39,556 nt of DNA from Defluviitaleaceae bacterium (GTDB taxonomy: Bacteria; Bacillota; Clostridia; Lachnospirales; UBA5962). Positions 14,357 through 33,838 of the stretch are shown piece by piece (position 1 is the stretch's first letter; the number at the start of each line of letters is the position of its first letter). A program made the translations under genes and the position numbers. A model generated the notes under the pieces. The model did no database searches and was not told the DNA's origin. It worked only from the letters and a program-made list of their open reading frames with translations. Where the stretch lies: contig WRKF01000181.1 in assembly GCA_009778165.1 (NCBI GenBank), positions 1 to 39,556 on the forward strand, in the 5' to 3' direction.

Positions 14357-14541
14357 AGGGTAAATTGGGCGCTACCCCACCCCGCAAGGGGCGATGGCCC
14401 CTTGACCCTCAAAATTGTGAAACACTTAAATTCACTACAATTTTGGGGGTCGAGGGGGCTAGTCCCGGGATGCATGGGCGAGCAGCAACCGTAGGTTGCG
14501 ACCAGCCCCCTCGCGGGGTGTGGGGCAGCGCCCCACGGTTT
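14357..14541. repeat. Two GC-rich repeat units facing each other
   Basis: The left arm (about 14367-14420) and right arm (about 14437-14537) are inverted copies of the GC-rich element seen at four other places. The arms meet at AAAATTGT (14411-14418) and ACAATTTT (14437-14444), and the outer ends share GGGCGCTA and CAGCGCCC. The right arm has about 40 extra bases, including GCATGGGCGA, absent from the left arm; a similar insert occurs in the 32063 copy. The whole could fold into a hairpin of about 170 bases inside the operon. Confidence 0.75.
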
Positions 14542-14563
14542 TACAACAAACAAGGAGGACAAA

Positions 14564-20381: not shown

Positions 20382-22046
20382 ATGAAAACAATAAACGGTA
20401 ATATTTTAAGAAAGGCTATTATTTTTGGTATAAATGAACTGGACAAAAATAAAGGAGAAATAAACTCTTTAAATGTTTTTCCTGTACCGGATGGAGATAC
20501 AGGAACAAATATGACAATGACTGCCTACAGTGCAGGCAAAGAAGTTGAAAAACTGTCTACAACAAATATATCTACAGTTGCAAAAGCCGCTTCTTCCGGA
20601 TCTTTGCGGGGGGCTCGCGGCAATAGTGGAGTTATATTATCCCAACTCTTTCGCGGGTTTGCAAAAGGTGTAGAGGGAAAAGAAGAGATAGATGCAAAAG
20701 GTTTTTCGGTAGGTTTTGTAAAAGCGATGGAAGCGGCGTATAAAGCTGTAATGAAGCCAAAAGAAGGAACAATCCTGACGATAGCAAAAGCCCTTGCCGA
20801 ATCCGCTACAGAAATTTCTAAGCGTGAAGAAAATATAGAAATAATGCTTAAAGAAATGATAGTTCATGGGCACAAAGTTCTTGTAAAAACCCAGTTCATG
20901 CTACCGGAGTTGCGAGAAGCAAAGGTAATAGATGCCGGCGGAAGAGGCTTGTTGTATGTGTTGGAGGGAGCTTTGAATGCAAACTATTCCCATGATGTGG
21001 CATTAAATAGCTTAACTGCGGCAAAAGACCCGCAGCCTACAGGGGTTTTGGCGGCTACAGGCGCAGATATAAAATTCGCGTATTGCACTGAAATGTTTAT
21101 AGATCTTGCCACAAAAAGCAAAAAAAACTTTGAAGAAATAGAAGACGAAATGCTAAAATACCTAGATAGTATGGGTGATAGTGTTGTTTTGGTCGGAGAT
21201 GAAAACATAGTAAAGATTCATATTCACACAAATAATCCCGGTGCTGTTTTAGAAAACAGCCTAAAATACGGTGATTTATCCAACATAAAAATAGACAATA
21301 TGCGTCTTCAGCACGAAGAAATTGTTAGTTTTGCTACAGATATACAAACGAAACCCACAATTGCAAGTGATACGGATGTAGTTGCAAAGAAAATCGCTAT
21401 TTTAGCTGTTGCTTCCGGTGCCGGGTTTAAAGACATATTTTTGAAATTGAATGCAGATACGGTTATAGAAGGCGGGCAAACGATGAACCCCTCTACAGAC
21501 TGCTTTTTGCAAGCAATAGACAAAATGCAGGCTGCCGATATTCTGATTTTGCCAAACAACAGCAATATAATACTTGCAGCCCAACAGGCACAAAAAATGA
21601 CGAAAAAAAGCGTTCATGTGCTAAACACAAAAACCCTGCCGGAAGGTATAGCTGCCATGTACAACTACAACATAGATGCAGATATTTTTGATAATTTGGC
21701 ATCAATGGAGGAAGGTGTAAAAAACACATTTACAGGGCAAGTAACATATGCGGTAAAAGACAGTGCATATAAAGACATTACGATAAAAAAGGGCGACATA
21801 ATATGTATGCTAAACAATGAGATTGTAGATACCAAAACAAATGTGCAAGAAGCGGCAACAGCCCTAATAACTACAATGGCAGAAACAAAAAAACCCGAGT
21901 TCATCAACATATACTACGGTGAAGAAGCCGACGAAAAAGGGGCAAACCTGCTAAAGGAACACATAGAAACTAATTATCCGAGTATTGAAGTGGAAGCGTA
22001 CAACGGTGGTCAGTCACATTACTATTATGTGATTTCGGCTGAATAG
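20382..22046 (+). CDS. fakA: Fatty acid kinase catalytic subunit FakA (DAK2 domain, YloV)
   Basis: 554 residues, the usual length. FakA phosphorylates fatty acids bound to a FakB (DegV-family) partner, feeding exogenous or recycled fatty acids into phospholipid synthesis. The N-terminal DAK2 kinase domain shows NVFPVPDGDTGTNMTMT at about 27-43, with the Asp residues that bind Mg-ATP, and RGARGNSGVILSQLFRGF at about 75-92. The middle domain shows VIDAGGRGLLYVLEGAL, and the C-terminal DegV-like domain ends with EVEAYNGGQSHYYYVISAE. A weak AGGGGA site precedes the ATG. No fakB is in the window. The next gene begins 17 bases later, so the transporter genes are probably in the same operon. Confidence 0.9.
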   Translation: MKTINGNILRKAIIFGINELDKNKGEINSLNVFPVPDGDTGTNMTMTAYSAGKEVEKLSTTNISTVAKAASSGSLRGARGNSGVILSQLFRGFAKGVEGKEEIDAKGFSVGFVKAMEAAYKAVMKPKEGTILTIAKALAESATEISKREENIEIMLKEMIVHGHKVLVKTQFMLPELREAKVIDAGGRGLLYVLEGALNANYSHDVALNSLTAAKDPQPTGVLAATGADIKFAYCTEMFIDLATKSKKNFEEIEDEMLKYLDSMGDSVVLVGDENIVKIHIHTNNPGAVLENSLKYGDLSNIKIDNMRLQHEEIVSFATDIQTKPTIASDTDVVAKKIAILAVASGAGFKDIFLKLNADTVIEGGQTMNPSTDCFLQAIDKMQAADILILPNNSNIILAAQQAQKMTKKSVHVLNTKTLPEGIAAMYNYNIDADIFDNLASMEEGVKNTFTGQVTYAVKDSAYKDITIKKGDIICMLNNEIVDTKTNVQEAATALITTMAETKKPEFINIYYGEEADEKGANLLKEHIETNYPSIEVEAYNGGQSHYYYVISAE

Positions 22047-22063
22047 TGGAGGAGATAGCCAAA

Positions 22064-23554
22064 ATGAAAAACAAAAAAAAGCTCATAATTATTGTAGCTG
22101 CTGTGTTGGTTGTAGGTGTTGGTATATTTGTGTTGGCAAGCCCAAATATTGGGCAGGGGGAACCGACGGGGCCAAACGTAGCCGTTGCCCCTGTTAGCCG
22201 TAGCACATTGGAAAGCAACGTAACAGCCCAAGGCGAGGTGCTTATGTTAGGCACGGGCAACGTTGCATTTATAAACAACACATTGGAAGTGTCTGAAATA
22301 CTTGTTTCTGAAAACGATGTGGTAGAAGAAGGACAACCCCTTATTACTTTTAACACGCAAATGCTGGAACGTACTCGCCAGCGAGATGCATTGTTGCATC
22401 AATTGCACGACACACAGCTCATGTTGCAAAGCCAACGGGTTCAAGTGGAAAGTATGCGCCTAGGGCCCACCAACATAGAAATAGAAAACGCAAACTTTAA
22501 TATATCCAGGGCCCGGCAAGGTATACTAGACGCTTATTTTGCACAGGAACAAATAGAAACATCCGTTACCTTGCAAGAAATAAGTATCGGGCTAATACAA
22601 ACCAATTTGCTCGATGCCGCCAATACATTTTTAAATACTCAAACATTGTTTAATATAGGTGCGGCAACCCAAGTGCAACTAGACAACGCCACAAGGGCAG
22701 TAGAAAATTTGGAAGTGGAACTGCGTAGTGCTCAAGAAAACTTGATAACACTGGGCAACCAACGTATTCAGGCAACCCAAAACATAACGGCTGCATATGA
22801 CAACTTGCGTTTGGCAGAGATACAGCTAGAGGATTTGCAAAACCGTGTAACAAGCCCCCAAAACCAAAACGCCATAGCTCAACAAGAAATAGCGATACAG
22901 CGCACACAACTGGCAATACAAGACATAAACCGCAACATAGACAATTTGGACGATGTAGAAGAAGTGCTGTTCAGCCCTGTGGCAGGTACAGTTACGGCAA
23001 TAAACGTTGTGGCAGGTGGGATGGCTGCACAGGGTTCACCTCTTGTGCAAATATCCGATGTAGACGACTATGTTGTGAGAGCTTTTATTAATCAACTACA
23101 CGCCGGTCAGCTTAGCATCGGTCAAAACGTAACAATAGAAGGATCTATACTGGGCAACCAAGTGTTGCAAGGGCGAATATACAGCATTTCCACCATTGCC
23201 ACAACACAGGCTATTGCAGGCATTATGGAGCGGGTTATCCCGATAGAAATAACCGTAGACAGCCAAGACACAGACCTACTCATCCCCGGGGTTACGCTAG
23301 ATATTACCGTAACAACAGATGTGCGTGAAAATGTAATAGCAATCCCCCTTCTTTCTACTTTGATAGACCCTGCCGGTAGCAGCTTTGTGTTTGTTGTGGC
23401 CGGTGATAACACAATAGAGCAACGTTTTGTAGATGTTATCACATACGCCGAAATGTACATAGAAGTAACAGGCTTGGAAGAAGGCGAGTTAATAGTATTG
23501 CAGCCCCTGCCCACAATGGAAAGCGGCATGTTAATAACTCCTATAGGGGGTTAG
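22064..23554 (+). CDS. HlyD/MacA-type periplasmic adaptor protein of an ABC exporter
   Basis: 496 residues. One N-terminal membrane anchor (KLIIIVAAVLVVGVGIFVLA), then the two halves of a biotinyl-lipoyl-like domain around a long alpha-helical hairpin rich in Q, E, L and N (roughly residues 95-290), and a beta-barrel and membrane-proximal domain. This is the adaptor layout of RND and MacAB-like exporters; in Firmicutes such proteins work with an ATPase and FtsX-fold permeases, as in YknXYZ. The start at 22064 follows GGAGGAG; it lies 17 bases after fakA. The ATPase gene begins four bases after its stop. Cargo unknown (peptide, lipid or antimicrobial are possible). Confidence 0.88.
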   Translation: MKNKKKLIIIVAAVLVVGVGIFVLASPNIGQGEPTGPNVAVAPVSRSTLESNVTAQGEVLMLGTGNVAFINNTLEVSEILVSENDVVEEGQPLITFNTQMLERTRQRDALLHQLHDTQLMLQSQRVQVESMRLGPTNIEIENANFNISRARQGILDAYFAQEQIETSVTLQEISIGLIQTNLLDAANTFLNTQTLFNIGAATQVQLDNATRAVENLEVELRSAQENLITLGNQRIQATQNITAAYDNLRLAEIQLEDLQNRVTSPQNQNAIAQQEIAIQRTQLAIQDINRNIDNLDDVEEVLFSPVAGTVTAINVVAGGMAAQGSPLVQISDVDDYVVRAFINQLHAGQLSIGQNVTIEGSILGNQVLQGRIYSISTIATTQAIAGIMERVIPIEITVDSQDTDLLIPGVTLDITVTTDVRENVIAIPLLSTLIDPAGSSFVFVVAGDNTIEQRFVDVITYAEMYIEVTGLEEGELIVLQPLPTMESGMLITPIGG

Positions 23555-23558
23555 CATA

Positions 23559-24287
23559 ATGAAATCTGTTATTGAGGTAAAAAACCTTCGCAAAATATAC
23601 AAAAACGGACATTTAGAATTAGAGGCCCTAACAGACGTTAATTTTTCTGTGGAAGAAAATGAATTTTTGACCATAATGGGCAAAAGTGGTTCGGGAAAAT
23701 CTACATTAATGAATATATTGGGCTGTTTAGACACCGTATCTTATGGAGAGTACATACTGGACGGGGAAAATGTAGCAGGGCTTTCCCAAAACCGCTTGGC
23801 AGGCATACGCAACAAAAAACTGGGGTTTGTTTTTCAGTCTTTTAATCTGCTGCCTAGGCTAACGGCTCAGCAAAATGTGGAGTTGCCTATGGTATACGGT
23901 GGGGTTAGCCGTAGCAAGCGGCGAGAGGCAGCCAAAATCGCCCTTAGCCGTGTTGGGCTTAGCGATAGGGGGCATCATCGCCCAAACGAGCTGAGCGGTG
24001 GGCAACGCCAACGTGTTGCTATAGCACGGGCTCTTGTGAACAACCCCGCAATCCTGTTGGCAGACGAGCCAACAGGCAACCTAGACAGCCGCTCCACAGA
24101 GGACGTAATAGCCATATTTCAACAGCTGAACAGGGAAGGCTCCACAATCATAATTGTTACCCACGAACCGGAGGTAGCAGAGCATACAAGTCGTATAATA
24201 ACGTTTAAAGACGGAATGATAATCTCCAACAAAAATGTAGAAAATCGAAAAATAGCAGTAGCAAGACCACCAGAAGAAATAGAATAA
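23559..24287 (+). CDS. ABC transporter ATP-binding protein (MacB/LolD class)
   Basis: 242 residues. Walker [14 protein letters not shown] near residue 40, Q-loop [14 protein letters not shown], signature [15 protein letters not shown], Walker [17 protein letters not shown] and H-loop [13 protein letters not shown], all intact. Sequence style is that of the LolD/MacB/YknY class, which energises FtsX-fold permeases that move substrates by conformational change rather than through a channel. It is the only ATPase in the operon, while three permease genes follow, so it probably serves all three. The small hicA and hicB genes separate it from the first permease. Confidence 0.95.
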
Positions 24288-24351
24288 GGAAGGGGTAACT
24301 TATTTCAGTTTAAATAACTATAGCAGAAATAGGTTTTGCTAGTTCATTTAT

Positions 24352-24537
24352 ATGACCACATCAGAATTTGTAAGAAAAATCAAAAAACACGGATGTGAAT
24401 TTTATAAGCATGATAAAAAGCACGATGTATACATTAACCCTTCAAATGGCAAAAAAACAAGAATTCCAAGACATGCAAAGAAGGAATTAGGTGCAGGTAT
24501 AACAAGCTCAATGTTGGAGGATTTAGGATTGAAATAA
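24352..24537 (+). CDS. hicA: HicA family toxin (mRNA interferase)
   Basis: 61 residues, the usual HicA length. HicA cleaves mRNA through a conserved His in a small double-stranded-RNA-binding-like fold. The pattern is clear: an N-terminal SEFVRKIKKHGCEF helix and strand, the KHDKKHDVYINP segment with the candidate His, the basic RIPRHAKKEL turn and the C-terminal SSMLEDLGL helix. No good Shine-Dalgarno precedes the ATG, so its translation is expected to be weak. Its antitoxin hicB follows after 38 bases. The pair lies between the ATPase and the first permease of an exporter operon, an unusual place for such a module. Confidence 0.85.
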   Translation: MTTSEFVRKIKKHGCEFYKHDKKHDVYINPSNGKKTRIPRHAKKELGAGITSSMLEDLGLK

Positions 24538-24575
24538 CCTAATTTCCTCTAATAATAATCAGTTGGGAGGTTAAT

Positions 24576-24851
24576 ATGAGATATGTTTTTCCGGCAGTTT
24601 TTCGCAAACAAACAGACGTTGCAGGTTATCATATCTTTTTCCCTGATATACAGGGCGCAGGTACTGTTGGCGAAGATTTGTATGATGGTATAGACATGGC
24701 ACAAGATTGGCTGTGTGGCAGGCTTTTTGAAATGGAAGAGAATGGCGAAATTGTCCCTAGACCTAGCGATACAAATGAGATAAAGTATGAAAAAGACGAT
24801 ATTGTAACACTTATAGCAACTGATACAGATAATTACAGGCATTTTTTATAG
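24576..24851 (+). CDS. hicB: HicB family antitoxin, without a DNA-binding domain
   Basis: 91 residues. The partial RNase-H-like fold of HicB is seen in YVFPAVFRKQTDVAGYHIFFPDIQGAGTVGED, followed by the DLYDGIDMAQDWLCGRLFEME helix and the conserved end VTLIATDTDNY. HicB proteins often continue with a helix-turn-helix or ribbon-helix-helix domain that binds their own promoter; here the protein stops just after the toxin-binding fold. A strong GGGAGG site precedes the ATG, better than that of hicA, which favours antitoxin excess. Without a DNA-binding part the pair may depend on the exporter operon for regulation. Confidence 0.82.
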   Translation: MRYVFPAVFRKQTDVAGYHIFFPDIQGAGTVGEDLYDGIDMAQDWLCGRLFEMEENGEIVPRPSDTNEIKYEKDDIVTLIATDTDNYRHFL

Positions 24852-24910
24852 ATATTAGTTATAGTTGTTTAGCTTAAAAATCGTTTAACGATTTTAAAGG
24901 GGGTATGACC

Positions 24911-26131
24911 ATGGCATTGTTTGAAAGCATAACATCTGCAATAAAAAGCATATATTCGTACAAAATGCGTTCGGTTCTTACTATGCTTGGAATAATAATA
25001 GGCATTAGCTCTGTAATAATGATAACAAGTATCGGAGATGGGGTGTACCAGGCTATCTATTCTGAGTTGGAGGCTTTTAACACCACATCTATACAAGCTA
25101 TGCCCCGCAACATGTTTGGACCGCCCATTTTGGAATTGGACGATATGCACGCCGCAAAAGCATTGCCAAATGTGATAAACGTTACAGGCATGTTAGAACT
25201 GGGCGGACAGCAGCTGGCGTTGCGCACCCCTGGAGAGTTTCGTCGGGGCAGCGGGTGGGGGCTAGACCACAACTACGGCACACTGGAAAATGTAAACATG
25301 CTGTACGGCCGTTTTATAACTCAACAAGATGTAGATGCAGAGGCGTTTGTTGCAGTCATCTCCCCGGAGGTGAGTTTGGATGTGTTTGGGTTTGTGGACA
25401 GCGTTGGTCATACATTGCAGGTAACGGGCCCGCGTGGCCGTTACAGGCTAACCGTTGTGGGCATATTAGACATTTCTCCGGTAGAGATGGCTCCGCAAAC
25501 CCCTCTTAACCTGAGCATGTTTATTGTGCCTCTTACTACTGCCGGTGCATTGCGTAACGTTCCCGGTCGTATAGACAACTTTTCCTTATCAGTAGAAAAC
25601 CCCTTCCTTAGCTTAGCTACAGCAGACCAAGTGGCCCGCTTGCTCAACATCCGCCACGGCACAGACGACGCTTTTTTGGTTATGAGTGCCACAGAAATAA
25701 TGGACGGTATAGACGTTATTTTTAACGGAGTAACGGGTTTTATTGCCTTTGTGGCGGGTATATCCCTCTTTGTTGGTGGGGTAGGGGTAATGAATATAAT
25801 GATGGTAACGGTGACAGAACGCACAAGGGAGATTGGTATACGCAAATCCCTCGGGGCTACCGGCATGCTGATACGCTTGCAGTTTGTGTTCGAGGCAATT
25901 TTTATTACATTTATCGGGGGCGTTATTGGCATTGTGTTTGGGCTGTTGGGGGCAGCTGCTTTAACCACCGCCGCCACGCACTTTTCCGGAATGTCTATTT
26001 ACGCCTACGTGGATATAACTGCCATAATAATTGCCGTGGTGGTAAGTGTTTTGGTCGGGTTAGTTTTTGGGGTGTACCCTGCGGCAAAAGCTGCCAATTT
26101 AGACCCCGTAGATTCGTTGCGGTATGAATAG
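24911..26131 (+). CDS. MacB-type ABC permease (FtsX fold), first copy
   Basis: 406 residues. An N-terminal membrane segment (SVLTMLGIIIGISSVIMITSIG), a long extracytoplasmic MacB-PCD domain and three C-terminal membrane segments, the FtsX/MacB layout. The cytoplasmic loop VTERTREIGIRKSLGAT, which contacts the ATPase, and the end VYPAAKAANLDPVDSLRYE are shared with the second permease. ATG 24911 is chosen over the one two codons upstream because it gives proper distance from AAAGGGGG and matches the starts of the two paralogs. Works with the HlyD and ATPase proteins encoded just upstream. Confidence 0.92.
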   Translation: MALFESITSAIKSIYSYKMRSVLTMLGIIIGISSVIMITSIGDGVYQAIYSELEAFNTTSIQAMPRNMFGPPILELDDMHAAKALPNVINVTGMLELGGQQLALRTPGEFRRGSGWGLDHNYGTLENVNMLYGRFITQQDVDAEAFVAVISPEVSLDVFGFVDSVGHTLQVTGPRGRYRLTVVGILDISPVEMAPQTPLNLSMFIVPLTTAGALRNVPGRIDNFSLSVENPFLSLATADQVARLLNIRHGTDDAFLVMSATEIMDGIDVIFNGVTGFIAFVAGISLFVGGVGVMNIMMVTVTERTREIGIRKSLGATGMLIRLQFVFEAIFITFIGGVIGIVFGLLGAAALTTAATHFSGMSIYAYVDITAIIIAVVVSVLVGLVFGVYPAAKAANLDPVDSLRYE

Positions 26132-26169
26132 GAGAAAAAATATCAAACTGGGATTTTAACACTAAAAAA

Positions 26170-26223
26170 TGGGGTCAAGGGGTTAGCCCCTTGCGGGGTG
26201 TGGGGCAGAGCCCCACGGTTTTA
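26170..26223. repeat. GC-rich palindromic repeat, copy between permeases 1 and 2
   Basis: Begins GGGGTCAAGGGG and has two hairpins in a row: AAGGGGTTAGCCCCTT and GTGGGGCAGAGCCCCAC, ending CGGTTTTA. Nearly the exact inverse of the copy at 33777. Confidence 0.8.
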
Positions 26224-26251
26224 TGACGCTACCTAAAACAAGGAGTAACAA

Positions 26252-27496
26252 ATGCAATTATTAGAAAGTTTTAGCTCGGCAATAAAAAGTATATTTTCTT
26301 ACAAAATGCGCTCCCTGCTTACTATGCTTGGCATAATAATAGGAATTAGCTCTGTAATAACTATAACAAGCCTGGGGGACGGTGTGTACAACGCTATGCA
26401 CGAGGCTTTTGCCGATTTTAATATGAACAGTATACAAGTGTTCCCAAGAGGAATACATATAACAGAAGATGGCGGGTTTGGAATAGAACAATTGCTGCAC
26501 ATAGACGACGTTGCTGCAATAAACTCTGTACACAATGTGGTTGACACCAGTGCAATTGTAGAGTTATCTAACCATAGGATAACCCTACGGAACGGCGAAA
26601 CTCGTTTGGGTATGGCGATAGGAACAGACCCAAACTGGTCATCTTTTGAATCGTTTACAATGCTACATGGTCGGTTTATACAAGAGCAGGATATGATTGC
26701 TAATTCTTTTGTGGCAGTGCTTGCCCCATGGGTTAGCGTAGATATTTTTGGCTTTGTAAACAGTGTTGGCAGGACATTTGACGTAACAGGAGATCACGGC
26801 AGGTTTACACTAACAGTTATTGGCATAGTAGATGTGGAAAGGGACGTTATGGCCGCCGGTGGTGTCATTAACACAGACATGTTTGCCATGCCCGTAACAA
26901 CAGCCGGTTTAATACGAAACACTCCGGGGATTGTAGATGCGTTTCAGATAACTTTAGATGACCCGGCTTTAACAACGGCTACATCTGATCAAATAGTGCG
27001 CCTGCTTAACCATATTCACGATAGAGAAGATGCCTTTGGTGCTATGGGCATGACAGAAGCTCTGGACATGCTAGATGCCGTAATGCTTGGAGTTACTGCA
27101 TTTATCGCCTTTGTTGCCGGCATATCTCTTTTTGTGGGCGGAGTAGGGGTAATGAATATAATGATGGTAACTGTAACAGAACGCACAAGAGAGATTGGTA
27201 TACGCAAATCCCTCGGTGCTACCGGGCTTATAATACGTTTGCAGTTTGTGCTGGAGGCTGTTATATTAACGCTAATGGGCGGTATTATCGGCATTGCTTT
27301 TGGCTTGGCATCGTCTTTTGCCTTAACCGCAGTAATTAACATGGCTGTACCTGAAATGGAGATAATATCTACCGTAAACCCCGGGGTTATTGCTATTGCC
27401 ATTGCTGTGTCTATGATGGTTGGGATTGTGTTTGGGGTGTACCCGGCGGCAAAAGCAGCCAATTTGGACCCTGTAGATTCGCTGCGATATGAGTAA
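26252..27496 (+). CDS. MacB-type ABC permease (FtsX fold), second copy
   Basis: 414 residues, same four-segment layout as the preceding permease. Conserved ends are MRSLLTMLGIIIGISSVITITSLG at the N-terminus and VTERTREIGIRKSLGATG plus VYPAAKAANLDPVDSLRYE at the C-terminus. The extracytoplasmic domain differs more than the membrane parts, as expected if substrate or partner contacts differ. The ATG follows AAGGAG. With the first copy it probably arose by tandem duplication: the stretch coding for the ATPase-contact loop is nearly identical at the DNA level. The two could pair as a heterodimer. Confidence 0.92.
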   Translation: MQLLESFSSAIKSIFSYKMRSLLTMLGIIIGISSVITITSLGDGVYNAMHEAFADFNMNSIQVFPRGIHITEDGGFGIEQLLHIDDVAAINSVHNVVDTSAIVELSNHRITLRNGETRLGMAIGTDPNWSSFESFTMLHGRFIQEQDMIANSFVAVLAPWVSVDIFGFVNSVGRTFDVTGDHGRFTLTVIGIVDVERDVMAAGGVINTDMFAMPVTTAGLIRNTPGIVDAFQITLDDPALTTATSDQIVRLLNHIHDREDAFGAMGMTEALDMLDAVMLGVTAFIAFVAGISLFVGGVGVMNIMMVTVTERTREIGIRKSLGATGLIIRLQFVLEAVILTLMGGIIGIAFGLASSFALTAVINMAVPEMEIISTVNPGVIAIAIAVSMMVGIVFGVYPAAKAANLDPVDSLRYE

Positions 27497-27512
27497 AAAA
27501 GGGGGGTATTAT

Positions 27513-27704
27513 ATGGCATCTGAAATTGAGTTGGTTGTATTGCAAAAAGAAAAGCTGTTTGATCTGCTAGAGATAGAAGCTGCAAAAACAGAAGAGGAAA
27601 GACTGAAAATACTGCAAAGACAGATAATGAAAGCCGAAACAGCAATGAAAAAAGAAGATGTGGCACTGGTAAGGGAAAATATAGAAGCGATGAAAAAGGC
27701 ATAA
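27513..27704 (+). CDS. Small charged helical protein, unknown
   Basis: 63 residues beginning MASEIELVVLQKEKL. Composition is Glu, Lys, Leu and Met rich with heptad-like spacing over most of the length, so a single helix or coiled coil is expected. There is no signal peptide or membrane segment. ATG 27513 follows a GGGGGG-rich site after the second permease stop. I do not recognise a family. Its place between permease genes next to a MazE-like fragment suggests a small accessory or toxin-antitoxin-type protein, but nothing in the sequence proves this. Confidence 0.55.
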   Translation: MASEIELVVLQKEKLFDLLEIEAAKTEEERLKILQRQIMKAETAMKKEDVALVRENIEAMKKA

Positions 27705-27719
27705 GAGAGGGTTTTAATA

Positions 27720-27944
27720 ATGTATTCTGCAATGTATTCTGCTACAACGAAACTAAATAAAAGAGAAAATACTACTCTTGAAACACATCAGGAACTGCTT
27801 GCTTTTAAAAAGCCGTATAAACACAAGACCTTACGACAAAGAGTAGAGGAGTTTTATGGTGTTGATTTTGAAACAGTTATAAAAGAAAATCTCTACGATT
27901 TTGAAGAAATTCCATATAGCGGTCCTGTGGGGCAAGAAGTGTAA
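27720..27944 (+). CDS. Short protein resembling the C-terminal half of MazE-type antitoxins
   Basis: 74 residues. The part from about residue 35 to the end (TLRQRVEEFYGVDFET, then an acidic stretch and GPVGQEV) resembles the toxin-binding tail of AbrB/MazE-type antitoxins, which usually ends in a WGxPVGxEVW-like motif. The AbrB DNA-binding half is missing and the usual final Trp is absent. No MazF or other toxin gene follows. It may be an orphan antitoxin, an antitoxin against a distant toxin, or a remnant. An AGAGAGGG site precedes the ATG. Similarity judged by eye only. Confidence 0.45.
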   Translation: MYSAMYSATTKLNKRENTTLETHQELLAFKKPYKHKTLRQRVEEFYGVDFETVIKENLYDFEEIPYSGPVGQEV

Positions 27945-28007
27945 TTAACCATGGAAAAGAACAACATTTCCTTGGTCGAAATCGGGCTAACTATTAACCT
28001 AAATGAT

Positions 28008-28061
28008 GGGGTCAAGGGGCTTGCCCCTTGTGGGGGTTTGGGGGCAACGCCCCCAAGGTTT
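28008..28061. repeat. GC-rich palindromic repeat, copy between permeases 2 and 3
   Basis: Begins GGGGTCAAGGGG and shows hairpins AAGGGGCTTGCCCCTT and TTGGGGGCAACGCCCCCAA, ending in GGTTTTTAA. Both stems keep full pairing despite base changes relative to the 26170 copy. Confidence 0.8.
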
Positions 28062-28097
28062 TTAATGGATTTAAAACATTAGCAAAAGGAGGGCGTT

Positions 28098-29342
28098 ATG
28101 CCAATACTAGAAACTATATCGTCTGCTGTGGCGAGCATTCTTGCAAATAAAATGCGGGCGGCGTTCACTATGTTTGGGATAGTTGTGGGGATTGCTTCTG
28201 TTATGCTTATAACGAGCGTGGGCGACGGGTTCAGAAACACCATTAACGCCCAGTTCGAGGACATGGGGCTAGATGAAATACAACTGTTCCACACCGGTGC
28301 GGCACGCCCGATAGAATGGCACGAGCGAATGGTAATGGACGATGCAGAGTTTTTGCGTAACCACCAAAACTTGACTGCCGTTACTACACTTGCCAGCACA
28401 ACTTTCAACAATGCTGTAGATATACTAACAAGCAACGACCCGCGTGCAGTACAGCTAATGGGCGTTGACCAATACAGGCAGTTTTTTAGCGGTCCCACAA
28501 TAATATACGGTCGCCCAATAATGGCACCGGATGTAGCCACTGGATCAAACGTTATTATTATAGACGAGCATTTTAGCATGGCGGCGTTTGGTAGATCAAA
28601 CAGCGTAGGGCAAACCCTAAACATTCGCACACCAAACGCAGGAACGCAAGCATTTACCGTAATAGGCATATTTGAAGGTAGCGATGCCTTTGCCCTAATG
28701 GAAATGTTCCAAATGCCGTTTGAAACAGAGGTGCCAATAACAACGGTGCAACGGTTGCAGGGGATAGGCGAGGTTGTAGGACAGATTAGGGTACAGGTAG
28801 GGTACGAGTACCGCCCCGCTATCCATGGGATAGGTGATAATCTTATCCGTATTATGGAAATAAGAAAAAATGCCGACGATATTTTTAACGCATTTAGCAT
28901 GGCAAGCGTTTTAAATGAGGTGGATACAATAATAACGATATTTACCGTGTTTTTAACTATAGTGGCAAGTATTAGCCTAATGGTTGGCGGTATTGGCGTT
29001 ATGAACATTATGCTTGTTAGCGTTACAGAACGCACAAGAGAGATAGGTATTCGCAAATCTCTCGGTGCTACAAACTTTAACATAGTATTTCAGTTTTTGC
29101 TAGAGGCATCTATTTTAACTGCAATAGGAGGAGCTTTTGGGATTGTTATTGGTTACGCAGGGGGGATAGGTGTTGGTTATCTCACATATTTGATTTTGGA
29201 TTTAAGTTTAGTGCCAACGGTAGACATAGTAACTATTGCTGTAATAGTTGCAATATCTGCGTCTATTGGTTTGCTGTTTGGCGTTTATCCCGCTCGCAAA
29301 GCATCTAAACTGGACCCGGTGGAGAGCTTACGATTTGAATAG
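28098..29342 (+). CDS. MacB-type ABC permease (FtsX fold), third copy
   Basis: 414 residues. Same layout as the two other permeases, with VTERTREIGIRKSLGAT and FGVYPARKASKLDPVESLRFE conserved, but the N-terminal segment (MRAAFTMFGIVVGIASVMLI) and the extracytoplasmic domain have diverged clearly, so this is an older paralog. The ATG follows AAAAGGAGG. It is the last gene of the exporter group; about 140 bases with a new promoter separate it from the chemoreceptor gene. It may partner with one of the other permeases or form a separate complex with the same ATPase. Confidence 0.92.
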   Translation: MPILETISSAVASILANKMRAAFTMFGIVVGIASVMLITSVGDGFRNTINAQFEDMGLDEIQLFHTGAARPIEWHERMVMDDAEFLRNHQNLTAVTTLASTTFNNAVDILTSNDPRAVQLMGVDQYRQFFSGPTIIYGRPIMAPDVATGSNVIIIDEHFSMAAFGRSNSVGQTLNIRTPNAGTQAFTVIGIFEGSDAFALMEMFQMPFETEVPITTVQRLQGIGEVVGQIRVQVGYEYRPAIHGIGDNLIRIMEIRKNADDIFNAFSMASVLNEVDTIITIFTVFLTIVASISLMVGGIGVMNIMLVSVTERTREIGIRKSLGATNFNIVFQFLLEASILTAIGGAFGIVIGYAGGIGVGYLTYLILDLSLVPTVDIVTIAVIVAISASIGLLFGVYPARKASKLDPVESLRFE

Positions 29343-29390
29343 ATGCGGGGAAAACTTTATATCTCTATTTCCAAATTTCCGAATAATAAT

Positions 29391-29420
29391 TTGACAAATG
29401 CTTGTTAGCTGTGTTATTAT
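29391..29420 (+). promoter_or_regulatory. Promoter of the chemoreceptor gene
   Basis: TTGACA (29391-29396), 18-base spacer, TATTAT (29415-29420), about 65 bases before the ATG at 29485. Confidence 0.55.
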
Positions 29421-29484
29421 TGTTTCAATTGTTATTGCTTTATGATGTAATATGAGGACTTGCGGAAATGTAAGGAGGTATTTT

Positions 29485-32055
29485 ATGTTTGGGAAAAACC
29501 GTAATACAAAGCTATCAACAAAATTGGCTCTCAGCATTTTGTTAACTTTTACTGCCGGGTTAATTGTTGCTGTTTTTGTTGTAAATGCTTTTGTGCAGGG
29601 GATAATTTACGATAACATTATGGAAAAAAACCAAATACAAATGGCAGTTTATGCAAGCGAGTTAGATGCTTGGTTTTTAGCTAGACAGCAGATAGTTGAC
29701 AACATTGGTACTGTAATTGAACATCTTGGCATGGATTACATAATGGATTTGACCGCTCATTTCCAAGAATATTATGATGACATGGCATTGGTTTTTGTTG
29801 GTGGCAGTACGGGAAACTGGGTAATGTCTGGAACGCTAGGTTATGGATGGCAAGGACCGCCGGGTTTTTATGTAGAAGAAAGACCTTGGTATGTTCCCGC
29901 TGTTGTTGCTGATGGTGCTGTTGTGTTCTCTGAACCATACGTTTCTGCTGGCTATCCATATGGTTTGGTTATAACTGCCTCCAGGCTTTTGCCTAACCTT
30001 GGCGGTGCTGTTTTGGGTGTGGACATTTTGCTTGACGAAATTGTAAGCATGGTAGATATATATGCTGACGTAGCAGATGGGTATGTATTTTTAATGACTT
30101 CCTATGGTTATGTTGTGCATCATCCCAGCCTTGATATTGCACCGGGTCCGGATGGTCTTTCGCATGTAACTGACTTTGCTGTTTATGATCCTTTGTATGA
30201 GATTATGCAACTCCCCGACACCATTACAAACTTTACTACAGCAGATGGTATTCCATCTTATCTAATGACACTTGAGTTACCGCATACAGACTGGTATCTT
30301 GTTGTTGCACTGCCAACTTATGTTGCGATGGGACCGGTTTCTCAAGCGATGTATGCCATATTTATCAGCTTTGCCATCGTTTTGCTTGCTCTTGGCATAT
30401 TTGTTGCGTTTTTTGTCTCTTATAGTGTAAAAGGGACGGTCGAAGCAAAAATAAATTATTTCAGAACCTATTCCCGAAGGAAATCTGTTGCATTATCTAG
30501 AGGAGATCTTACACTTACCGAAGAAGAACAGGACATAAGCACTGACAAATCGTTTGGGTTTGGCGTAATAGACGGCGAATTTGAGCAAGTTGTTGATAAT
30601 CTCATAAAGGTGTGTTACGACGTAAACAAATTTTATACCGAAACCCTTAAAGGCAATTATCGATATTCAATCGATATTGGGAGTTATACCGGAATATACA
30701 TGGGGATCGTCGCCAATGTAAACATTTTGTCTGACTCTCTTATAAAAAGCAGAAGTGATATTATAGACTTTTTTAGAAAAGTGGCAGATGGGGACTTTAA
30801 CGCTAACTGTGATACTACCTTTGTGGGAGAAGAAGCCTATATTAACGATGTTTTGAACACAGTAAAACAAAATATTGGAGACGTTGCTGCTGCCATTCGC
30901 GGTTTGGTTAATCAGGCTTCTGAAGGAGATTTGACAGTTAGAGCAGATGCAAGCAAATTTAATGGAGACTGGCAAAGTTTAGTAGAAGAGCTAAATGAAC
31001 TTATGGAATCTATCTCGGTTCCTTTGTCAGAAATTGAAAACAATGTTGAAATAATGGCACAAGGAGATTTTGCCCGTTTAGAGGGCGAGTACCTTGGCGT
31101 GTTTGGAGACCTTCAAAGAGCCTGTAATTTGGTTAACGATATTGCCGAATCTTATGTTGATGAAATAGCAGAGGTTCTCCATGCTATGTCTAACGGAGAT
31201 TTGACCGTAAAACTTCGTCAAAAATATGTTGGCTCTTATGCACCAATAGAAGTGGCAATAAATGTGATCTTGGACAACTTAAATTCTACCCTGTCAGACG
31301 TTCAGGGAGCAGTTAATCACGTAGCTCTTGGGGCAGAGCAAGTGTCAGAAAACGCCATGAGCTTTGCGATGGGTGCCACAAAACAAACCGGTACCCTAGA
31401 GGGCCTCAAAAACTCTATTAACCTTATCCATGAAAAAGCTGTGAAAGCTAGCAGTAATGCCATATCAGCAGAAGAAAATGCTACACAAACAGAGAAGCAT
31501 GTAATTGACGGAAATAAAGCTATAAGCTCTATGACAGATACGATGAGTAAGATCAGAGAATCCAGCGAAGATATTGCGAGGATTATTGATATTATAACAA
31601 ATATTTCTTTCCAAACTAACCTGCTTGCCTTAAACGCTTCTGTAGAGGCTGCTCGTGCAGGAGAGCATGGGAGAGGGTTTTCTGTTGTGGCAGACGAAGT
31701 ACGCAGTTTGGCAGGTCGTAGCCAACAATCAGCTTCAGAAACATCGGGCATAATAGAAGAAAACGAAAGGACAGTAACGGAGATTATACAGACTACAGAC
31801 AACGTTGTAAATTCCTTTGGAATCATATCAAACAATATATCCAATATTACTGATTTAATAAAGGATATATCTGAAATCTCTGCTGAACAGTTGGAATCTA
31901 TTGTAGATATTAATGCTGCTATTTTGGAAATAAACGACGTTGCTATCGGCGCCGCAGCAACATCAGAAGAGTCAGCGGCAGTTTCTCAAGAGCTAAACTC
32001 TCAATCTGAAACTCTTAGAGAAAAAGTTTCTTTCTTTAAACTTAGAGATAAATAA
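29485..32055 (+). CDS. Methyl-accepting chemotaxis protein with Cache sensor and several HAMP-like units
   Basis: 856 residues. First membrane segment near 14-36, an extracytoplasmic double-Cache-like sensor with [25 protein letters not shown] (split family motif ending in ERPWY) and [15 protein letters not shown], second membrane segment near 290-315, then about 280 residues with repeated HAMP-like DGDF, EGDLTVR, QGDF and NGDLTVKL motifs. The signalling tip is intact: [20 protein letters not shown] followed by [23 protein letters not shown]. The start follows TAAGGAGG. Small organic ligands such as amino acids or carboxylates are usual for Cache sensors. No other che genes are in the window. 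It converges with a diguanylate cyclase gene. Confidence 0.92.
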
Positions 32056-33776: not shown

Positions 33777-33838
33777 TAAAACCGTGGGGCGCTTGCCTCA
33801 CACCCCGCAAGGGGCTAGCCCCTTGACCATTTTTTTGT
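33777..33838 (+). terminator. GC-rich palindromic repeat acting as terminator of the VOC gene
   Basis: Inverse copy of the 26170 repeat (begins TAAAACCGTGGGGC, ends AAGGGGCTAGCCCCTTGACC), followed by a run of seven T. The last stem plus T-run is a good intrinsic terminator shortly after the stop at 33759. Confidence 0.7.

Follow-up and report, generated by a model that had tools for sequence, protein, structure and literature searches.

Class 1 hicAB toxin-antitoxin (TA) modules (Gerdes 2024, PMC10865869) consist of hicA followed in tight coupling or overlap by hicB, with a HicA of 60–85 amino acids (aa) beside a HicB of 60–90 aa that has only a partial RNase H fold and lacks a DNA-binding domain. 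MacAB-type tripartite exporter operons encode a membrane fusion protein, an ABC ATPase and MacB_PCD/FtsX permeases together, while MazEF modules combine an AbrB-type MazE, whose N-terminal half binds DNA, with a mazF directly downstream. Dispersed small repeats of bacteria, a further point of comparison, are many short copies lying between genes. Here we describe a contig of a Defluviitaleaceae bacterium (WRKF01000181.1; 39,556 nucleotides, all of which we call the window) in which a MacAB-like exporter operon holds a hicAB pair between its ATPase gene and its first permease gene, and a 63-aa open reading frame (ORF) and a MazE-like ORF between its second and third permease genes. A previous sequence-only reading of the window had given these places and the gene order, and both were confirmed; all these genes lie on the plus strand. 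It had also proposed that the small genes follow exporter transcription and that HicA could make the exporter addictive to the cell. We consider it probable that the operon received two independent acquisitions, with the exporter as landing site, and that the toxin genes were not recruited for addiction.

The locus departs from each of these known systems in its own way. The exporter components stand in the same order as in the MacAB type, but the permease genes number three, two of which share 58% identity, and foreign small genes are interspersed. The hicAB pair agrees with Class 1 in having hicA before hicB, a HicA of about 60 aa and a HicB of about 90 aa with the partial RNase H fold only. 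It differs from Class 1 in the 38-base gap between the genes, in its position inside an exporter operon and in that the homologues from its own family mostly possess the C-terminal part. The MazE-like ORF resembles the C-terminal half and tail of the AbrB-type MazE of MazEF modules, but lacks the first ~23 residues, the terminal Trp and mazF. Finally, the 63-aa ORF belongs to a family which, like dispersed repeats, has many short copies scattered between genes, but which codes for a folded, selected protein with copies inside ribosomal and glycolytic operons.

On the explanation we favour, a compact hicAB pair would have entered between the ATPase and permease 1 genes, and in its HicB the C-terminal DNA-binding part would have disappeared or would never have been present. 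Judging from known HicAB complexes, HicB would silence HicA by covering its active site, and the pair would be supplied by read-through from the exporter or by a weak local promoter. The second acquisition, between permeases 2 and 3, would have brought one copy of the 63-aa family and the 3' part of a mazE, which has decayed and whose mazF is gone.

The hicA-hicB pair

The toxin gene hicA (24352..24537) encodes 61 aa with a HicA_toxin domain (PF07927, 40.4 bits against a cut-off of 27) and keeps the conserved His24, which was invariant in all six aligned HicA proteins; this His is the catalytic residue of HicA according to PMC11594946. The antitoxin gene hicB (24576..24851) encodes 91 aa, one above the typical Class 1 range, and matches HicB_lk_antitox (PF15919) at 28.4 bits (cut-off 27), covering only positions 1–81 of 123. 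The predicted structure, beta-beta-beta-alpha-beta with a short end helix (pLDDT 90.4), corresponds to a bare partial RNase H fold. The Pfam positions, the alignment and the model thus all bear out the claim that HicB stops after its toxin-binding fold. HicBs that lack a DNA-binding domain are already described as common in PMC10865869 and PMC11594946. In the HicA domain, the catalytic His and a HicB fold free of a DNA-binding domain, the pair agrees with Class 1.

HicB was aligned with five relatives from its own genome and family. Four of the five share a C-terminal stretch before which the window HicB stops, and the relatives that continue there include one 41% identical to it. The fifth, encoded on contig C92 of the window's own genome (L010:1483-1809), ends within this stretch. 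Searching the PDB by sequence, we obtained four HicB chains for HicB, with 5yrz the best, and no match for HicA; no match of HicB was confirmed in viral contigs.

Compared with the nearest relative, the proportion of synonymous differences (pS) was 0.91 for hicA and 0.79 for hicB, and that of nonsynonymous differences (pN) 0.29 and 0.41, respectively. The differences are proportionally far more synonymous, which indicates that the pair has been kept, over a span that includes the time before any truncation and that does not date the truncation of HicB. PMC10865869 warns that some Class 1 HicBs are fresh truncations, and the window pair may be either a working Class 1 pair or a recent truncation.

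The better surviving alternative, which we nevertheless hold to be unlikely, is that all the TA genes are decaying, with hicB a truncated pseudogene, hicA weakly or not expressed, mazE a remnant and the whole locus on its way out. It would explain why hicB ends just before the conserved C-terminal part, it agrees with the absence, by eye, of a strong Shine-Dalgarno stretch ahead of hicA, and the mazE remnant shows that decay does happen at this locus. However, hicA is complete and scores above the Pfam cut-off, the HicB fold is predicted well, and PMC10865869 considers most Class 1 HicBs of such a length to be functional.

Identical stretches of 8 bases flank hicAB, at 24351-24358 (hicA start codon) and at 24904-24911 (permease 1 start). 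This direct repeat could be a target-site duplication or chance, a single match of this kind being by estimate not far from chance.

Conservation among related exporters

A Pfam scan of the operon, which lies in a draft genome of 2.67 Mb (189 contigs, 91% complete), identified a MacA/HlyD-type membrane fusion protein (22046..23554; PF13437 HlyD_3, 8.2e-14), a MacB-type ABC ATPase (23559..24287; PF00005 ABC_tran, 1.3e-32) and three MacB_PCD/FtsX permeases: permease 1 (24905..26131; PF12704 and PF02687), permease 2 (26252..27496), which is the one 58% identical to permease 1, and permease 3 (28098..29342; PF12704 and PF02687). The four small genes have a G+C content of 0.32–0.38 (0.24–0.33 at third codon positions) against 0.44–0.48 (0.40–0.50) for the exporter genes, which fits the expectation for separately acquired DNA.

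A search for the permease in 146 genomes of the order at E<=1e-70 gave 41 places in 36 genomes; two of these places belong to the window itself. We compared 17 regions, which represent 19 of the other 39 places. By permease 1, the closest relatives among the genomes compared are the Defluviitaleaceae bacterium isolates Nc150P1bin1 and Mp193P1bin2, which presumably originate from termite guts. An ATPase gene (tblastn, 60–84% identical) stands beside the permease in 15 of the 17 regions, and within about 70 bases in 14 of them, as measured by match ends. In the fifteenth (L041) the gap of about 188 bases is free of hicAB, small-family and MazE genes. Moreover, two adjacent permeases with nothing between them are present in four regions (L027, L029, L030 and L032). 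Recurrence of the same insertion in related exporter operons had been named beforehand as a check, and a one-off insertion without conservation as a refuter of the sequence-only reading. As a result of the comparison, HicA, HicB, the 63-aa ORF and the MazE piece were matched in none of the 17 regions at E<=1e-3, a limit at which remote relatives could be missed.

A truncated MazE

Over 65 residues the MazE-like ORF (27720..27944, 74 aa) aligns at 46% identity with the second half of an AbrB-type MazE, the G260 protein, and by this alignment we regard it as a 5'-truncated mazE remnant without mazF. What remains is the end of the AbrB domain together with the tail. Reading 27440-28100 in six frames, we found no mazF and no remnant of the missing mazE start or of the final Trp.

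We also searched for MazE in 295 genomes of the order, and 11 genomes, including the window's own, had a match. Loci were read for seven of the ten others (L019, L020, L021, L023, and L016–L018 via L043–L045), leaving out L022, L024 and L025. All seven encode a full AbrB-type MazE start, and MazF follows directly in six, none being listed for L021. Full mazEF modules were also found in two viral contigs. Both PemK/MazF genes of the window's own genome are on contig C177, and the ORFs upstream of them are small and unrelated to the MazE-like ORF. Because no MazF adjoins it and the two PemK/MazF genes of the genome have different upstream ORFs of their own, the MazE-like ORF is most likely debris rather than a regulated antitoxin. 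The sequence-only reading was right that the first half of the AbrB domain is missing, but the view of an antitoxin under regulation was not supported. That the fragment is a specialised toxin-binding antitoxin was rejected as first choice, its start, last residue and toxin gene all being missing. On the other hand, the prediction that HicB and the MazE-like protein do not repress their own promoters is supported: neither looks able to, because HicB is without its DNA-binding part and the MazE-like ORF without the first AbrB half.

Transcription of the operon

Two copies of a G+C-rich, terminator-like hairpin repeat (26162..26223 and 27999..28062, plus strand) were found by repeat pattern search, terminator scan and folding. 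T runs follow both, with terminator-like sites at 26199 and 28037, inside the operon. Contrary to the earlier claim, the small genes are therefore not bound to be read from a single exporter transcript. The core pattern, with at most three mismatches and both strands counted, has 22 matches in the genome against none for a reversed control. The hairpins fold no better than shuffles of the same composition (z -1.09 and -0.74). The repeats make a single uninterrupted exporter transcript doubtful, yet do not disprove it. A scan for sigma-70-like promoters gave 21 sites against 17.1 expected by chance and is therefore uninformative. One 10-of-12 site precedes hicB, at 24529-24556, and is no more than a candidate. 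The Rfam search of 21500-30000 in the window matched no RNA element. Further copies of the hairpin repeat lie in the window at 14507-14543 and 33808-33830, and a sequence resembling it is found beside some members of the 63-aa family in other genomes.

Exporter addiction, in which hicAB is transcribed only with the exporter so that a cell losing the operon is exposed to free HicA and the exporter is retained by selection, is improbable: the gene order in the operon, the HicB without a DNA-binding part and the intact HicA with its conserved His agree with it, but none of the 17 related loci shares the arrangement, the MazE piece has no toxin beside it, the terminator-like repeats make co-transcription doubtful, and ordinary TA logic stabilises any neighbouring gene, so that nothing ties hicAB to the exporter. 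Nothing indicates that the toxin genes were taken up in order to create an exporter addiction.

Several points weigh against the explanation we favour. First, hicA and hicB are intact ORFs with pN far below pS. Second, the comparison of exporters was made without a second genome of the same genus, and conservation within the genus is outside its reach. Third, the MazE piece has an open frame of 74 aa, whose product might bind a MazF in trans. Fourth, the terminator scan found 2 sites against 7.2 in shuffles, and the hairpins are therefore not significant as a count. In the literature on TA genes in exporter or housekeeping operons and on decayed TA genes we found nothing on point, which is not proof of absence. 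Taken together, the TA genes are a modest addition, with another Class 1-like hicAB at an unusual site and a mazE relic, and the family of the 63-aa ORF matters more than this TA finding.

A multicopy family of small proteins

The 63-aa ORF (27513..27704, best read from the ATG at 27513) had been read as a coiled-coil ORF. Its place stands; the AlphaFold2 model, however, has three short predicted helices (pLDDT 94.5, pTM 0.68), and the protein is part of a separate family whose members occur in many operons unrelated to one another. With the single protein as query, 30 of 295 genomes of the order had a match at E<=0.05, in part weak matches inside long proteins. An 18-member profile matched 26 of 392 genomes of the order at E<=0.001. 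By the latter there are up to 15 matches per genome, and six in the window's own. Across the phylum, a profile of 67 members matched 3 of 398 genomes at E<=1e-4, namely the own genome and two weak ones. Searching Pfam, PHROGs and NCBIfam with the 18 members gave only single-member matches at E 0.003 or worse, and PADLOC had no match for the window member. Against solved structures, Foldseek returned 34 matches for the model, none at E<=0.001, and the best VIA-align Z was 4.3; neither gave a convincing relative. Nothing on point was found in the literature on this family, which again does not prove absence. The family looks new, apparently unnamed, lineage-restricted and operon-dwelling. A plasmid or phage origin was rejected, one member having no match in plasmids or phages and two queries giving none confirmed in viral contigs.

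We took 60 regions from the places of the 18-member search, leaving out the weaker ones. Together with the window, 60 of 61 stretches contain members by profile (L147 has none), 78 in all. Of 40 flanking proteins sent to Pfam, five had no family at the limits used. One genome has S12, a member, S7, a member and EF-G in this order, with S7 assigned by place and length, and a second has S7, a member and EF-G. Other members are flanked by gpmI and enolase (eno), by SecA and release factor (prfB), by biotin carboxylase (accC) and ACCA, by NfeD and FloA, or by two flagellar rod proteins; pyruvate kinase, HSP70 (dnaK), flagellin and Cas9 each adjoin a member. In L126:2068-3698 rplB (L2) and rpsS (S19) are separated by a member together with a further small ORF. 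The pair rplB-rpsS and the other flanked pairs are normally adjacent.

The rpsG-fusA junction is occupied by a member in three genomes that belong to a single family (L145:2505-6149, L154:2460-4690 and L138:2531-5336), and one of them carries another member between rpsL and rpsG. For L138, the gene preceding the member was assigned to S7 by eye; the EF-G that follows is 85–92% identical to the other two. Across the three genomes the member is 51–57% identical, against 83–92% for EF-G, and its pN of 0.29–0.37 against a pS of 0.68–0.76 points to purifying selection. By these two contrasts the fusA-site member is a real, selected and fast-evolving protein.

Of 56 member pairs that are at least 52% identical over 50 residues or more, 7 share a locus. 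In 8 others some flanking gene is homologous (in 3 of these only at 27–39% identity), and the remaining 41, which include pairs 73–83% identical, have no homologous flanking gene. Similar members in unrelated surroundings fit copying into new places, though they might also result from gene rearrangement or horizontal transfer of larger pieces. The DNA similarity of dispersed copies is limited to the ORF, at 71–75% identity; at this level unselected flanks would have drifted apart anyway, and we therefore drew no insertion ends. An upstream neighbour on the same strand is present for 56 of 76 members and for 141 of 205 control ORF pairs from a crude ORF caller, so the family has no clear excess of strand bias over background.

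Tentatively, and with somewhat less than even confidence, we suggest that these lineage-restricted, multicopy microproteins of three helices entered operons one copy at a time (rpsL-rpsG-fusA, rplB-rpsS, gpmI-eno and prfB-secA among them) and were kept as translated, selected proteins, either as a single-gene mobile element hitch-hiking on strong operons or as operon-specific protein partners. If the former is true and a single 60-codon gene can multiply without harm between the genes of ribosomal and glycolytic operons, it would count as a coding element, mobile or hitch-hiking, of unusually small size; if the latter, there would be an unrecognised layer of operon-specific partner proteins. 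Either reading is directly testable, because three genomes from a single family have the rpsG-fusA site in common.

In L146:2617-3383, L156:3045-3877 and L151:4019-4663 members stand in tandem, three or four to an array. In L165:1-3196, 23 bases separate a member from the Cas9-like gene downstream of it.

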